The translations under genes and the position numbers were made by a program. From positions 248,001 to 312,000 of the forward strand of contig JAGNKU010000005.1 of NCBI GenBank assembly GCA_017999985.1: a stretch of 64,000 bases of DNA, in the 5' to 3' direction. Below are positions 5,341 through 40,282 of this stretch, piece after piece (positions within the stretch are counted from its first letter, which is position 1; every line of letters begins with the position of its first letter). This DNA is from Phycisphaerae bacterium (GTDB lineage Bacteria > Planctomycetota > Phycisphaerae > UBA1845 > Fen-1342). Below the pieces are notes generated by a model that saw nothing but the letters and a program-made list of their open reading frames with translations, was not told where the DNA came from and searched no databases.

Positions 5341-5994
5341 TTACTTCTCCTCGCCGGGCAACGCTACCGCCTCGGCCGCGTCCACCAGCGCCTGCACCAG
5401 ATTGCCCCCCAGCACCGTCGCCCGCTCGCCGCGCATGCGCACCACCACGCACGCCGCCTCCCGCAGCCAGCCCGGCACCCGCGCTTCCGGCGCCGGCTGA
5501 AACACCACCGCCCAATCCTGCGGCAACATCCACGTCGCCACCCCGGGAAATTCCGCGCGCAGCTCGCGCGGCGTCCTCACCGCCACGACCGCACTCGGCA
5601 GCCGGCCAACTTCCAGCGGCTGGAGAAAACCAATCTGCCGCTCGAGCGCCGCCAGCAGCAGCGGTCGCTCCGGCGGATCGGGCAACTCCCCTGCGAGTGG
5701 GAGGGGCTGGTACCCCACGGCATCGACCACGCGCAGCGCCTGCGTCGCGTCCTTCCGCCCCACCGCCAGCGCGAAGTCCAGCGCCGCCAGCAGCGCGTGA
5801 TCACGCGGCGCCCGCTCGCGCGGTTGCACCCGCGCCAGCCGCTGCCGCACCGCCGCCAGCGGCTCATCCGCCGGCGCGCTCGCCGGCTGCGACGCCGGCA
5901 GGCTCTGCCCCCGCGCTGCGCCGGCGCAGAAAAACGCGACGGCCAGCAGCACCGACCGTCGCGTCCTTCGAAACCCGCACCCGCCGCTAGGCAT
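5341..5994 (-). CDS. Secreted protein of unknown function
   Basis: A 217-residue protein with a twin-Arg-containing basic N-terminus (GFRRTRRS) followed by a hydrophobic signal core (VLLAVAFFCAGAARG). A QSLPASQPASAPADEP linker of the Ser/Gln/Pro type common in planctomycete exported proteins comes next. The remaining 170 residues are Ala/Leu/Arg-rich, mostly helical in appearance, with no motif I recognise. The ATG overlaps the rplU stop by eight bases, so it is translationally coupled to ribosomal protein L21. In many bacteria rpmA (L27) sits in this position; it is absent here. Confidence 0.65.
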   Translation of the reverse strand: MPSGGCGFRRTRRSVLLAVAFFCAGAARGQSLPASQPASAPADEPLAAVRQRLARVQPRERAPRDHALLAALDFALAVGRKDATQALRVVDAVGYQPLPLAGELPDPPERPLLLAALERQIGFLQPLEVGRLPSAVVAVRTPRELRAEFPGVATWMLPQDWAVVFQPAPEARVPGWLREAACVVVRMRGERATVLGGNLVQALVDAAEAVALPGEEK

Positions 5995-6301
5995 TGATCG
6001 TGCCGATTTCGACCTTCAGCATCTTCTGGCGGTGCCCCCAGGTCTTCATGTAACCCTTCCGCCGGCGGAACTTCACGCCGCGGACCTTGGGGGTCTTCAG
6101 CCGCTGCACCACCTTGGCACTGACGGTCGCGCCGTTGACCCACGGCGTGCCGATCTTGGCATCGGCGCCCTCGCCCAGCATGAGCACCTTGTCAAAAGTG
6201 ATGTCCGTCTGGCCTTCCGGGAGTTCCTTCAGCTCGATGAGGAGCATGTCGCCCGTGCTCACCTTGTACTGCTTGCCGCCATCTTCAATAATCGCGTACA
6301 C
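5987..6301 (-). CDS. rplU: Large ribosomal subunit protein bL21
   Basis: A 104-residue protein matching bL21 from the first residue (YAIIEDGGKQYKVSTGDML) to the end, with the RNA-binding RRKGYMKTWGHRQ segment near the C-terminus. The start is GTG at 6299-6301, decided by a strong SD (GAAGGAG) six bases upstream and by family length. Longer readings from an ATG at 6421 add 40 residues without homology and would start upstream of the predicted promoter. It leads the minus-strand operon; rpmA does not follow. Confidence 0.96.
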   Translation of the reverse strand: MYAIIEDGGKQYKVSTGDMLLIELKELPEGQTDITFDKVLMLGEGADAKIGTPWVNGATVSAKVVQRLKTPKVRGVKFRRRKGYMKTWGHRQKMLKVEIGTINA

Positions 6302-6351
6302 GTTCGCTCCTTCACCGCGGGCCTCAGCCTGCCTCGACACTGGAACCCAGT

Positions 6352-6380
6352 AGTCTACGAGATCGTCACTGGCCATGCAA
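6352..6380 (-). promoter_or_regulatory. Sigma-70-type promoter of the rplU operon
   Basis: On the minus strand TTGCAT, a 17-base spacer and TAGACT stand 51-79 bases upstream of the rplU GTG. The predicted transcript starts near 6345 and carries a leader of about 45 bases ending in the strong SD. Confidence 0.6.
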
Positions 6381-6446
6381 TCCCCGCCGCCCGCCAAACG
6401 CAACTGCTTTTCCACTGGCAACTTGCGCCCCGGCCCCGCCCGCGGG

Positions 6447-6474
6447 TTGACGCTGCCCCATCCGCGACTACCCT
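6447..6474 (+). promoter_or_regulatory. Candidate aceE promoter, predicting a leaderless mRNA
   Basis: TTGACG, 16 bases, TACCCT. The -10 ends at 6474, so the expected transcription start (about 6480-6481) falls on or beside the aceE ATG at 6481. No SD-like sequence precedes the ATG, which fits a leaderless message. It is divergent from the rplU promoter, about 70 bases away. Confidence 0.45.
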
Positions 6475-6480
6475 AGGTTT

Positions 6481-9192
<2,712 letters not shown>

Positions 9193-31302: not shown

Positions 31303-32715
31303 CTACCGCTTGATCGACCGCAGGAACTCCTGCACCTCCGGAATGCCACCCTGGTAGCAGAGGTACCCGTTGTACGGCTCGCGGTCCGTGATCTCGTCGC
31401 TCACCGGCGTCAGCATCAGGCGCTGCACCTCGGCGCGGTCGTCCGTCTGGCCGAGCACCCAGCAGAGCTTCATGTACGCCACCTCGGGCAGCATGTTGCT
31501 CGCCGGCACAATGCCCAGCGTCATCAGGTCGCGGCCGGTGTCGTAGACGTACATGCCGCAGTAGCCCCACAGCGTCTGCACGGTCATGTAGATGTGCACG
31601 CCGGCCTCGACCGCCCGCCGGATCGCCGGATAGAGCGGCTTGTTGATGTGGCCCAGGCCCGTGCCGGCGATGACGATTCCGCGATAGCCCTTTTCGATGA
31701 TCGCGTCGACGAGGTCGGGCCGCATGTTCGGGTAGTAATAGAGGATCGTGACCTTCTCTTCGAAAGCCGTGTTGACTTTCACCTCGCGATCGGTCCGGCG
31801 ACGCTTGTAGTCCTGGCGGAGCGGGATAATCTCGCGCGGCGAGATCATGGCGACGGGGATTTCGGAGAGCGTGCGGAAGGTCGAGCGATAGCTGCTGTGC
31901 ATCTTGCGGACGCGCGTGCCGCGGTGCAGGAGGTTGTACTCGTCCGACGTGGGGCCGAACATGCAGACCAGCACCTCGGCGATATCGCCCTCGGCGGCGG
32001 CCTTCACGGCACATTGCAGATTGATCGCGGCGTCGGACGACGGCCGGTCGCTGGAGCGCTGGCTGCCGACCATGATGATCGGCACCGGCGTGTTCTGCAC
32101 CATGAAGGTCAGGATGGCCGCGGTGTGGTGCATGGTGTCGGTGCCGTGGCCGATGACGACGCCGGCCGTGCCCGCGCGGATTTCCTCGCCGATGCGCTGG
32201 GCGAGCTTGATGTACTGCTCTGGCCCCATGTTCTCGCTGAAGACGCCGAAGAGCTTCTCGGTGCGCAGGTTGCAGATGTCGGCCAGCTCGGGGACCGAGC
32301 CGTAGAGCTCGCCGGGGCTGAACGCGGGGATGACCGCGCCGGTGCGGTAGTCGAGCCGGCTGGCGATGGTGCCGCCGGTGCCGAAGAGCATGACGTTGGG
32401 TTTCTTCGGGTCGTAGGGGAATTCCTTTTCGGGAATCTTGTAGTGGGCTTCGCGGCGGCCGTGCTCGACCATTTTGGTGATCGAGGCGGCGTGGATGCCG
32501 ACGTTGTAGCCGCTGGCGAGCTTGAGCACGATGTGCTGGTCATCGGCGGTCTCGGAGCGCGGGAGGATCAGGCCGCGGAAGTTGCCGCGGGCGGACTCCA
32601 GCTCGACGTCGCTCCAGACGCCGACGTTGAAGCGTTCCAGGACGCTGCGGCCGAGGCCGCGATAGCCTTTGGTCTTGTCCGATGCGGGGGCAGCGGGTGT
32701 TGGTGCGGTGCTCAT
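31303..32715 (-). CDS. gatD: Glutamyl-tRNA(Gln) amidotransferase subunit D
   Basis: The asparaginase-like subunit that releases ammonia from glutamine for conversion of Glu-tRNA(Gln) to Gln-tRNA(Gln), working as a heterotetramer with GatE. The 470-residue chain has an N-terminal small beta-barrel (SDVELESARGNFRGLILPRS...LKLASGYNVGI). The type I asparaginase domain follows: the first catalytic Thr in FGTGGTIASRLDYRTGAVIP, the second in GHGTDTMHHTAAIL, then VPIIMVGSQRSSDRPSSDAA and LWGYCGMYVYDTGRDL. The barrel plus GGTIASRLDYRTGAV separates GatD from plain asparaginases. The start at 32715 is preferred; a longer frame to 32781 reads through a REP palindrome. Its partner gatE lies upstream beyond the RAYT element. 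Confidence 0.95.
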   Translation of the reverse strand: MSTAPTPAAPASDKTKGYRGLGRSVLERFNVGVWSDVELESARGNFRGLILPRSETADDQHIVLKLASGYNVGIHAASITKMVEHGRREAHYKIPEKEFPYDPKKPNVMLFGTGGTIASRLDYRTGAVIPAFSPGELYGSVPELADICNLRTEKLFGVFSENMGPEQYIKLAQRIGEEIRAGTAGVVIGHGTDTMHHTAAILTFMVQNTPVPIIMVGSQRSSDRPSSDAAINLQCAVKAAAEGDIAEVLVCMFGPTSDEYNLLHRGTRVRKMHSSYRSTFRTLSEIPVAMISPREIIPLRQDYKRRRTDREVKVNTAFEEKVTILYYYPNMRPDLVDAIIEKGYRGIVIAGTGLGHINKPLYPAIRRAVEAGVHIYMTVQTLWGYCGMYVYDTGRDLMTLGIVPASNMLPEVAYMKLCWVLGQTDDRAEVQRLMLTPVSDEITDREPYNGYLCYQGGIPEVQEFLRSIKR

Positions 32716-32743
32716 ATCACGTGCATCCAGTACGTCTTTGTGC

Positions 32744-33464
32744 CACTGCTCCTGAGCAGTGCAGAACTCCATGTGTCCCACTGCTCTCGAACAGTGTAAG
32801 ACTCACATTGTGGCACTGCTCTTGAGCAGTGAAGTTCACTCAATCGGGTCCATCCGAATCGGTACATCGTGACGTCCATCCCAGAAGCGGGCGCTCGACC
32901 ACGGCCAATCGAGCGGGTGATCGACGAGCCCGCGCCGAACCGGGTTCTGATGGACGTAGTCAACGACAACCCGGAGCGGCTTGTCATGCCAGATGTTGTG
33001 GTCGAACCCGCCGCCAGCCTCCCAGAAGCGAAACACGGTGCGGGACGGGTAGCGCACGGTCAGTCGCCTGAGCCAGTCCGTCTGGTTCGTCTGTCGCAGC
33101 CACTCGTGGGCGGCCGTCGCCACCGAGTGCTTCAGGTTCGCCAGGACTCTGGCCATCGCGCAATCTGGCGGAGGCAGCAGCACCACGTGCACATGCTCCG
33201 GCATGATCACATACGCCCAGAGTTGCAGGTGCAGGTGCTGGCGCGCCGACTCCAGGGCCTGGACCACCCACTGCCGACTGCGATCACGGCTCAGCAGGGG
33301 CCAGCGATGCACGCACGAGTACGTCAAGAAGTGCGCGTGTCCGGGTTCATCCCAGGCTCGACGCGTCTTGCACGGCTTCGTCACGAACATCGGTCCACCA
33401 GAGCACTGCTCAAGAGCAGTGGCACACGACGTACTCCACATCGCGACACTGCTCTAGAGCAGTG
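32744..33464 (-). mobile_element. RAYT element with five REP-type palindromes, inserted between gatE and gatD
   Basis: A REP-associated tyrosine transposase gene bracketed by 18-base palindromes CACTGCTC-NN-GAGCAGTG. Three are on the gatD side (32744-32761, 32779-32796 with one arm diverged, 32814-32831) and two on the gatE side (33404-33421, 33447-33464). The bases next to several palindromes are also shared (GTGGCAC or TGGCAC). The last palindrome contains the gatE stop codon at its centre (CTAG). All genes are on the same strand. Confidence 0.9.
32836..33390 (-). CDS. REP-associated tyrosine transposase (RAYT, Y1/TnpA_REP family)
   Basis: A 184-residue single-strand transposase of the Y1 HUH type. 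The metal-binding HUH motif is in MPEHVHVVLLPP. The nucleophile Tyr is in VVDYVHQNPVRRGLV, and the family C-terminus DWPWSSARFW follows. The start region HAHFLTYSCVHRWPLL matches the usual HxxHxTxxxxxR beginning. The ATG at 33388-33390 is taken; a longer frame would run into a flanking palindrome. RAYTs are domesticated relatives of IS200/IS605 transposases that handle REP palindromes, here visible on both sides. All catalytic residues are present. Confidence 0.93.
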   Translation of the reverse strand: MFVTKPCKTRRAWDEPGHAHFLTYSCVHRWPLLSRDRSRQWVVQALESARQHLHLQLWAYVIMPEHVHVVLLPPPDCAMARVLANLKHSVATAAHEWLRQTNQTDWLRRLTVRYPSRTVFRFWEAGGGFDHNIWHDKPLRVVVDYVHQNPVRRGLVDHPLDWPWSSARFWDGRHDVPIRMDPIE

Positions 33465-35424
33465 CCACACTGGGCGGCACGTGCAGCCGGGCGTTGATCC
33501 GCTGCACGACCTGCGCGCCGGCGACGCGGCCGACGAAGTCGTCCATGATCTGCCCGCACAGGTGCCGGGCCTTCTGCTGCGGCGTGCGGAACTTGCTGCC
33601 GTCCAGCCGCGCCAGGCGATGCGAGATCGCCTCGTCCAGGTCCGCATCGCTCAGCGGCGAGAAGTTGTGCTCAGCAAACACCGCCGCCACCCGGGCGGGC
33701 CCGGTGCCACCTTCAACCTGGGTATGCTCCGCCACCAGCCGCAGCACCGGCACGACGCCCTCGCGGCTCAACATCCCGCGCGCGTGGGCCTCGAAGACCG
33801 CGAAAATCTCGTCGTCCGTCAGCGCGTCCACCGGCACGCCCGACCGCCGCAGGTGCTTGTACTGCTCCATCAGCACGACGGCGGCGAACTTCGGCCGCAC
33901 CTTGAGCTGGCCCACGATCCGGTCGAACACGTCGGCCCGGCGGAGCGCGATTAGTCCCTGCACGACGTCCGCCGACAGGCCGAGCTGGCGATAGCGCGCC
34001 GCGCGGTCCCAGATGTACTCGGGCAGATGGGCGCGCAAGCGGTCGAGCCGCTCCTGCTCGATCGCCAGCGGCGGCAGGTCGGTGTCGGGGTACATGCGCT
34101 CGGCGCCGGGCAGCACGCGCTCGAAGCCGTTGGTGCCGTCCTTCAACGCCTGGCGTGTGTCGTTGGGAATGCCGATCGTGGCTTCCTTCGCGCGCAGCGC
34201 AATCTCGCTGCACGCCATCGCCGTGTCGGCCTCGCTGCCCCACACCACGACCAGCGCGTCGCCATGTTCGGCCCGCAGCTTGCGGCGCAGGTTCTTCCAC
34301 TCGCGGCCGGCGAGCGTCTCGGAGGCCATGTCGGAGTGGATGATGTTCGGCAGGCTGGTGAGGCAGGCGACGACGCGGACGCGGTCGGAGAACTCCTTGG
34401 CGAAATTCGTGTGCTCCTGCGTCTGCTCGTTCAGCAGGTCGGCAAAGCCGCGCAGCACGACGCAGCGGACCACGTGACCGGCGTGCACCGCCTGCCGCAG
34501 CGGTTCGTAGTTCGTCTTCGCGACCAGCGCGGTGACTTCCTGATCGGCCCACTGGAATGTCTCGGCACGCACGCCGCGCTCCCAGAGCAACTGGCGGATG
34601 TGCAGCAGGCTGCACTGCCGGCGGGCCTCGTTGTAGATCAGGCGCGGGTTGCGCCAGATCTGCGGCGTGCCCTTGATCTCGACGCGCGTGCCGCCGGTGA
34701 CGCTGACATTCACGTCCTGTCGGCCGGCGCCGTAGCCGGTGCGGACCTTGCCGGTGCTGCGGACGAGCTGGCGCAGGAGCTGGCCGACTTCGGCGGCTTC
34801 CTGCGGCGTATGCATGTCGGGCTCGGTGACGGTCTCGATCAGCGGCATGCCCAGCCGATCGGTCAGGTACACGCGATCGTGGCCGATGTCCGAGACTTCG
34901 CGGCAGGCGTCCTCTTCGATCGAGAGCTGGCGGATGCGGACGGTGCGGTCCTTGAACGGGATGACGCCGTCGACGCCGAGGATGCCGGTGCGCTGAAAGC
35001 CGGTCGGGATCGAGCCATCGAGGTACTGCTTGCGCGCGATGTGCAGTTCGCCGACCAGGTTGAGCCGCAAAAGCAGGCAGATCTCTAGGGCGATGTCGAG
35101 CGCTTCGTCGTCGATGAAGAACGGGGGCGTGTCGTCGAACTCGTAGGTGCAGACCGTATCGTGATGGATGCGGTAGTAGATGTTCTTCCTGGTCTTCTTT
35201 TCCATCAGCGCCGTGCCGTCGTACTCGCCGAGCTCGGACAGCGTCGGCCGCATGTGACGGAGGATTTCGGCGTCGTATTCCTGGCTGTAGCGCCCCGCCG
35301 GACAGCGGCAGAACAGCTTGCGGCGGGTCAGGAGCTGCTGATGGACCTCGAGGCCGACCTTCAGGCCGATGTTGAGATAGTCCGCTTCGGTCATCTGGTC
35401 GAACGGCTTGAACGACAAAGCCAT
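33454..35424 (-). CDS. gatE: Glutamyl-tRNA(Gln) amidotransferase subunit E
   Basis: The tRNA-binding, kinase/transamidase subunit of GatDE: phosphorylates Glu-tRNA(Gln) and adds ammonia delivered by GatD. The 656-residue length fits GatE, since GatB is about 480. The GatB/E cradle begins GLKVGLEVHQQLLTRRKLFC with RCP, continues HDTVCTYEFDDTPPFFIDDEAL, IPTGFQRTGILGVDG, RIRQLSIEEDACREV, GMPLIETVTEPDMHTP and RTGYGAGRQDVNVSV. A GatE-specific AspRS-like insertion (TNFAKEFSDRVRVVACLTS, GIPNDTRQALKDGTNGFERVLPG) follows, then a helical and YqeY-like tail. The stop codon lies in a REP palindrome, so VALL at the C-terminus is repeat-encoded. SD AAGGAGG lies 11 bases before the ATG. Confidence 0.96.
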   Translation of the reverse strand: MALSFKPFDQMTEADYLNIGLKVGLEVHQQLLTRRKLFCRCPAGRYSQEYDAEILRHMRPTLSELGEYDGTALMEKKTRKNIYYRIHHDTVCTYEFDDTPPFFIDDEALDIALEICLLLRLNLVGELHIARKQYLDGSIPTGFQRTGILGVDGVIPFKDRTVRIRQLSIEEDACREVSDIGHDRVYLTDRLGMPLIETVTEPDMHTPQEAAEVGQLLRQLVRSTGKVRTGYGAGRQDVNVSVTGGTRVEIKGTPQIWRNPRLIYNEARRQCSLLHIRQLLWERGVRAETFQWADQEVTALVAKTNYEPLRQAVHAGHVVRCVVLRGFADLLNEQTQEHTNFAKEFSDRVRVVACLTSLPNIIHSDMASETLAGREWKNLRRKLRAEHGDALVVVWGSEADTAMACSEIALRAKEATIGIPNDTRQALKDGTNGFERVLPGAERMYPDTDLPPLAIEQERLDRLRAHLPEYIWDRAARYRQLGLSADVVQGLIALRRADVFDRIVGQLKVRPKFAAVVLMEQYKHLRRSGVPVDALTDDEIFAVFEAHARGMLSREGVVPVLRLVAEHTQVEGGTGPARVAAVFAEHNFSPLSDADLDEAISHRLARLDGSKFRTPQQKARHLCGQIMDDFVGRVAGAQVVQRINARLHVPPSVALL

Positions 35425-39271: not shown

Positions 39272-40282
39272 TCATTGGGCCGCACCCGCCCTACCCGGCT
39301 GCAGCCAGGGCATCAGGGCGCGCAGGCAGCGACCGACCTCCTCGATGGGATGCGCTTGCGCCTGCTGCGCGGCCGCGGCCAGGCGCGGCTGACCGGCGCG
39401 GTGCTCCGCCATCCACTCGTCCGCGAAGGCCCCAGACTGGATCTCCTGGAGCAGTTCACGCATCGCCGCGCGCGTCGGCTGGCCAATCACGCGCTGGCCG
39501 CGCGACACGTCGCCGTAGGCCGCGGTGCGGCTGATGGCGGCGCGCATGCCGTCGATGCCGCGCGCGTGGATCAGGTCGGCGATCAGCTTGACCTCGTGCA
39601 GGCATTCGAAGTACGCGAGCTCCGGTGCGTAGCCCGCGTCGACGAGCGTCTCGAAGCCGGCGCGGATCAGCTCCGTCAGGCCGCCACAGAGCACAGCCTG
39701 CTCGCCAAAGAGGTCGGTCTCGGCTTCGTCACGAAACGTCGTCTCAATGATCCCCGCGCGGCCGCAGCCGAGCCCGCAGGCGCAGGCGAGGGCCACGTCG
39801 CGCGTGTCGCCGGCCGGGTCCTGGTGCACGGCGATCAACGCGGGCACGCCGCCGCCCTGCTCGAACTGCTGGCGGACCATCGGGCCGATGCCCTTCGGCG
39901 CGACGAGGAACACGTTGGTGTCCGGCGTCGGAACGAGCTTGCGGAAGTGGATCGCGAAGCCGTGGGCGAAGCCGAGATACAGCCCGCGCCGGCCGAGCGG
40001 CGCGATGTCCTGCGCGTACACGTCCGGCTGGCGCTCGTCGGGAATGAGCATGAGCACTACGTCGGCACGGCGGAGAGCATCGGCGACGGCACACACGGTG
40101 AGGCCGGCTTGCTCGGCGGTGGTCCGCGATGGGCTGCCGGGCCGCAAGCCGACGATCACGTCGCAACCGCTGTCGCGCAGGTTGAGGGCTTGCGCCCGGC
40201 CCTGCGAGCCGAAGCCCAGCACGGCGATACGCCGGTTCGTCAGCGCTGCGGTGCGGACATCCTGTTCGCGCCAGACCTTCAC
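39272..40282 (-). CDS. ilvC: Ketol-acid reductoisomerase, class I
   Basis: An NADPH- and Mg-dependent isomeroreductase of valine/isoleucine synthesis. At 336 residues it is class I length. The Rossmann motif is GFGSQGRAQALNLRDSG, followed by the cofactor loop VGLRPGSPSR. Catalytic metal ligands are visible in ETDLFGEQAVLCGG (Asp and Glu, DxxxE) and FECLHEVKLIADLI (Glu pair). FAHGFAIHF and APKGIGPMVRQQF are family marks. The start is GTG at 40280-40282 with SD GAGGT seven bases before. No other ilv/leu genes are adjacent. Confidence 0.96.
   Translation of the reverse strand: MKVWREQDVRTAALTNRRIAVLGFGSQGRAQALNLRDSGCDVIVGLRPGSPSRTTAEQAGLTVCAVADALRRADVVLMLIPDERQPDVYAQDIAPLGRRGLYLGFAHGFAIHFRKLVPTPDTNVFLVAPKGIGPMVRQQFEQGGGVPALIAVHQDPAGDTRDVALACACGLGCGRAGIIETTFRDEAETDLFGEQAVLCGGLTELIRAGFETLVDAGYAPELAYFECLHEVKLIADLIHARGIDGMRAAISRTAAYGDVSRGQRVIGQPTRAAMRELLQEIQSGAFADEWMAEHRAGQPRLAAAAQQAQAHPIEEVGRCLRALMPWLQPGRAGAAQ

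Follow-up and report, generated by a model that had tools for sequence, protein, structure and literature searches.

A probable GatDE-type Glu-tRNA(Gln) amidotransferase of a bacterial branch in a Phycisphaerae genome

According to a 2022 review, archaea are today the only organisms with the amidotransferase GatDE, which there recognises the A1-U72 pair and the D-loop of tRNA-Gln (PMC9499178). The bacterial enzyme GatCAB carries out the same class of reaction with a homologous catalytic subunit, GatB in place of GatE, but its GatA is of the amidase type whereas GatD is an asparaginase-type glutaminase, and GatDE has no GatC and carries a GAD insertion in GatE. The GlnRS-YqeY fusion (Deinococcus-type GlnRS) has a YqeY/GatB tail in common with GatE and lies upstream of gatE and gatD in one planctomycete family; it acylates directly, whereas GatDE acts by transamidation. 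The locus described here shares with archaeal GatDE its two subunits, the order of their domains, the catalytic motifs and the GatE fold. It differs in sequence, its GatE being 35-37% identical to archaeal sequences and falling in a separate clade, in the tRNA-Gln of the bacterial hosts, which has U1-A72 and not A1-U72, and in gene arrangement, the bacterial norm being overlapping gatE-gatD operons; its bacterial hosts often have GlnRS as well.

The window, the whole stretch of DNA analysed here, comprises 64,000 nucleotides of a Phycisphaerae contig. Its features at and around the gatE-gatD pair are as follows.

31303-32715, minus strand: gatD, glutaminase subunit D, about 470 amino acids from the likely native ATG; the reading frame is open from a GTG at 32781 (492 amino acids)
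32744-32761, no strand: REP-like palindrome, within the apparent N-terminal extension of gatD
32779-32796, no strand: REP-like palindrome, one mismatch
32814-32831, no strand: REP-like palindrome
32836-33441, minus strand: REP-associated tyrosine transposase ORF (IS200-like, Y1_Tnp), NF047646 at 89 bits (cut-off 80)
33404-33421, no strand: REP-like palindrome
33447-33464, no strand: REP-like palindrome CACTGCTCTAGAGCAGTG, providing the final residues and stop codon of gatE
33454-35424, minus strand: gatE, Glu-tRNA(Gln) amidotransferase subunit E (kinase/transamidase subunit), 656 amino acids, with GAD insertion and helical tail
39272-40282, minus strand: ketol-acid reductoisomerase (KARI), upstream of gatE

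The sequence-only reading had described gatE and gatD as complete genes on one strand, with an AspRS-like insertion in GatE, an N-terminal domain in GatD and signature residues retained, and in all of this it was borne out. Both ORFs lie on the minus strand and exceed the NCBIfam equivalog cut-offs: GatE scored 469 bits against TIGR00134 over residues 14-644 (curated cut-off 319.55 bits) and 528 bits against NF003107 (cut-off 456), and the 492-residue GatD ORF scored 507 bits against TIGR02153 (cut-off 324). GatB models reached at most 154 bits on the GatE protein, under their own cut-offs. Pfam searches divided GatE into GatB_N, the AspRS-like GAD insertion (PF02938, residues 310-399) and a YqeY-like tail (PF02637, residues 498-647) that at 25.6 bits falls slightly below the cut-off of 27 and is helical in the AF2 model. 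GatD consists of GatD_N (PF18195, residues 58-101) and asparaginase domains. The catalytic motifs are all present; in the numbering of the 492-residue ORF, GatD T138, T214, D215 and K293 align to T101, T177, D178 and K254 of the M. thermautotrophicus (Mth) protein, T-T-D-K positions that we take to be the asparaginase-type catalytic residues of the family.

The nearest solved structures for both subunits are GatDE of M. thermautotrophicus (2D6F) and P. abyssi (1ZQ1). The AF2 model of GatE (pLDDT 85) had P. abyssi GatE (1zq1_C) as its top PDB match, with a TM score of 0.83 by target length, followed by 0.80 by target for 2d6f, and GatB chains gave 0.73 or less. The dN/dS of gatE and gatD against relatives was 0.16-0.33 (NG86 estimate), values that suggest purifying selection on the two genes. 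We consider it quite probable that gatE and gatD code for a true bacterial GatDE heterodimer, a predicted glutamine-dependent Glu-tRNA(Gln) amidotransferase of an old bacterial branch, here beside GlnRS and the GatA and GatB of GatCAB.

The transposase unit, which the sequence-only reading overlooked, sits exactly between gatE and gatD. Five palindromes CACTGCTCNNGAGCAGTG surround it over positions 32744-33464 (0.04 expected), and the remainder of the window contains no palindrome CACTGCTCNNGAGCAGTG. The GTG at 32781, from which the gatD frame opens, falls inside a repeat. Because palindromes occupy the apparent N-terminal extension, and judging from relatives, gatD probably starts natively at the ATG at 32715, giving a protein of about 470 residues. 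In the closest relative, locus L061, whose GatE is 72% identical, no transposase separates the genes and gatD directly overlaps the 3' end of gatE; the usual overlap is broken here by a REP/transposase insertion. Different palindromic repeats were seen at the gatE-gatD junction in two other loci, L062 and L063.

Related genes are widespread in bacteria. A GatE that exceeds the cut-off, or clear fragments of one, occurs in about 23 of 392 planctomycete genomes, spread across families, and the same pair occurs in these relatives, GatD being found in 22 of the 23. A scan of 84,980 species returned at least 585 relatives. The best 80 of these are all from bacterial MAGs, chromosome-level records among them, and cover about ten phyla: Planctomycetota, Latescibacterota, Ignavibacteriota/Chlorobiota/Bacteroidota, Aminicenantota/Acidobacteriota, Calditrichota, Neomarinimicrobiota, KSB1, Krumholzibacteriota and Cloacimonadota. 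In 68 of these 80 loci gatE is followed by a same-strand gatD, mostly overlapping it or within a few bases, and an overlapping gatE-gatD operon is the normal bacterial arrangement. No GatE relative was found on viral contigs, and plasmids yielded a single archaeal one, a frameshifted and unannotated gatE copy on a Natrinema megaplasmid (CP031304.1, L193). Glutamine synthetase genes adjoin gatE or gatD in five loci (L036, L039, L041, L058 and L067).

In a tree rooted on GatB, GatE and GatB separate with full support. All sampled bacterial GatE form one clade (92/91; 87 in a larger quick tree) opposite the three archaeal sequences, from P. abyssi, M. thermautotrophicus and Natrinema, all euryarchaeal, which form another (100/98), and a long branch separates the two. 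The window GatE belongs to a Phycisphaerae clade (100/100) that adjoins Latescibacterota. An old transfer from archaea or a lineage-specific bacterial branch had been proposed from the letters alone; a bacterial branch stands, while its spread over about ten phyla means that it is not lineage-specific. Nothing in the data points to a recent archaeal source. One account of this pattern is a single ancient transfer out of an archaeal lineage, followed by additional transfers that spread the genes within Bacteria. We lean slightly towards it: it agrees with the patchy occurrence in planctomycetes, with the intermixing of several phyla within the bacterial clade and with the general description of archaea as GatDE users (PMC9499178), whereas the position of bacterial GatE as a separate clade, not inside the three archaeal sequences, and the long inter-domain branch speak against it.

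A search of the genome for the other glutamine routes, which the sequence-only reading had suggested, returned gatA, gatB, glnS and gltX: GatA matched its profile at 600 bits, GatB at 477 and GlnRS at 711, and the GluRS is of bacterial type. AsnRS and a bacterial AspRS are also encoded. For glutamine, the genome thus combines the direct route with the catalytic subunits of indirect ones. That reading had also raised the possibility that GatDE serves glutamine only, beside GatCAB; GatA and GatB are indeed present, but so are GlnRS and AsnRS, so that in this genome GatDE need not be reserved for Gln and GatCAB for Asn. GatDE is not the sole glutamine route, and since GlnRS is present, Gln-tRNA formation does not require it.

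Other GatDE bacteria vary in this respect. GlnRS was found in 43 of 49 GatDE genomes of a wide sample and GatB in 26 of 49, and one Ignavibacteria chromosome, G408, which is complete, encodes GlnRS and GatDE and lacks GatB. In the planctomycete sample, 11 of 23 GatE genomes have GlnRS (by E-value), against about half of the genomes lacking GatE. Because genomes with and without GatE have GlnRS at about the same frequency, we rejected the rule that GatDE generally substitutes for GlnRS. Neither GlnRS nor GatB was detected in three GatDE-positive genomes, the planctomycetes G249 (90% complete) and G124 (88%) and the Neomarinimicrobiota genome G434. If real, GatDE is the only Gln-tRNA route in these three; in incomplete genomes such a pattern could occasionally arise by chance. 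In G434 (C6, positions 5827-8300; loci L206 and L245) a tRNA-Gln(UUG) gene lies near one of two GluRS genes, possibly a Gln-dedicated GluRS. In another genome (G395, CP070718.1; locus L064) a C-terminal fragment is all that was found of GlnRS, and gatD runs over two frames, by decay or long-read error.

In three genomes of one planctomycete family, a GlnRS with a C-terminal YqeY/GatB domain, gatE and gatD form one overlapping operon in which GlnRS and gatE meet at one base. In these loci the GlnRS-YqeY gene lies at:

L047, 9028-11502
L049, 4667-7330
L053, 9728-12067

The glutamine-site residues Y211, C229 and Q255 of this GlnRS are conserved and its active site is canonical; the idea of a Glu-specific enzyme was rejected on the conserved residues.

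The presence of GlnRS in so many GatDE bacteria fits poorly with GatDE as the main route. Where GlnRS is encoded, as it is here, GatDE could instead be a clean-up enzyme that mends the Glu-tRNA(Gln) produced by GluRS or GlnRS, and not a bulk supplier of Gln-tRNA(Gln). The frequency of GlnRS, in the wide sample and here, and the overlapping operon with its canonical GlnRS favour such a role. The GluRS of this genome, which has Gly at the discriminator position of Tth Arg358, is likewise consistent with it, but many other bacteria with GatDE and GlnRS keep Arg there. Arg is found in most other phyla, G434 included, and the marker was dropped as a predictor, being inconsistent across GatDE bacteria. 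The clean-up role is a possibility that we would put at somewhat below even.

The tRNA substrates set these bacteria apart from archaea. In 24 GatDE bacteria, 44 tRNA-Gln genes were read; every one has U1-A72 (40 by automatic parsing, the other four after a one-base shift), and none has the archaeal A1-U72. The two tRNA-Gln genes of this genome (CUG and UUG) carry U1-A72 and G73. G249 has A73 in place of the bacterial G73, and U73 takes the place of G73 in the tRNA-Gln(UUG) of G027 and G072. Because all the tRNA-Gln read from the hosts carry U1-A72, tRNA recognition must differ from that of archaeal GatDE, and we infer from the gene sequences that the bacterial enzyme would have to accept the bacterial first base pair.

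Bacterial-type tRNA-Gln in every host read also accords with an origin of GatDE before the split of Bacteria and Archaea, followed by retention in these bacteria, as does the sister-clade topology on the GatB root; a proposal of Sheppard and Soell, as it is cited in PMC9499178, places both GatDE and GatCAB in LUCA. We regard this origin as rather unlikely, as the very patchy bacterial occurrence would require many losses and the tree rests on three archaeal sequences, all euryarchaeal.

The sequence-only reading had placed the pair among clearly bacterial genes, and the composition and setting agree, the genome being of planctomycete type. The source contig is bacterial and 349 kb long, in a genome 98.7% complete with 1.5% contamination. 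GC is 0.68 for the window, 0.68 for gatE and 0.65 for gatD, and GC and GC3 are similar to those of adjacent genes. KARI serves as a synteny anchor because it lies directly upstream of gatE in L061. Contamination of the assembly with archaeal DNA is ruled out by the contig, base composition, synteny and tree, and GatB/asparaginase paralogues by equivalog scores and fold. That the genes are such paralogues, a recent archaeal import or contamination is thus extremely improbable, for although GatE is partly similar to GatB and the transposase between the genes might hint at mobility, the scores and fold point to GatE and GatD, the GC and GC3 are genome-like, KARI is syntenic with a Phycisphaerae relative and the window GatE is nested in Phycisphaerae at 100/100.

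Several lines favour a bacterial GatDE: the equivalog and domain matches, the structural comparisons and retained T-T-D-K residues, the frequent gatE-gatD pairing, the low dN/dS, the tree, the three genomes with GatDE in which neither GlnRS nor GatB was detected, and the glutamine-linked operon neighbours GlnRS-YqeY and glutamine synthetase. Counting against it are the GlnRS found here and in most GatDE bacteria, the U1-A72 of the hosts, the mixed state of the GluRS marker position (Gly here, Arg in most other phyla) and the broken gatE-gatD overlap. For the bacterial GatDE that we favour, the following mechanism can be proposed. GatD would hydrolyse glutamine to ammonia at its asparaginase-type T-T-D-K site, and the ammonia would pass to GatE. 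GatE would activate the misattached glutamate with ATP and convert Glu-tRNA(Gln) to Gln-tRNA(Gln); its GAD insertion and tail presumably serve to recognise the bacterial tRNA-Gln. Here, beside GlnRS and GatCAB, the enzyme would most likely act on Glu-tRNA(Gln) made by a relaxed GluRS, and in some relatives GatDE looks like the sole route. More broadly, and as a tentative proposal of which we are somewhat doubtful, these genes may represent an overlooked, possibly ancestral bacterial GatDE clade that switched to U1-A72 tRNA-Gln, serving as the sole Gln-tRNA system in some phyla and as a GlnRS-operon partner repairing Glu-tRNA(Gln) in others.

In the open-access literature we found no report of GatDE in planctomycetes, Ignavibacteria or bacteria generally, and there the clade and its consequences appear undescribed; the genes themselves are not invisible, since automated annotation models already name such proteins. 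The absence of GatDE from bacteria underlies arguments on LUCA and on why archaea never acquired GlnRS, and a bacterial GatDE clade in about ten phyla alters those premises. With it, two questions can be tested: whether GatDE is an ancestral enzyme, and by what path its tRNA specificity shifted between A1-U72 and U1-A72. In the GlnRS-gatE-gatD operon, moreover, the direct and indirect routes are encoded together, which would be unexpected if they were alternatives.
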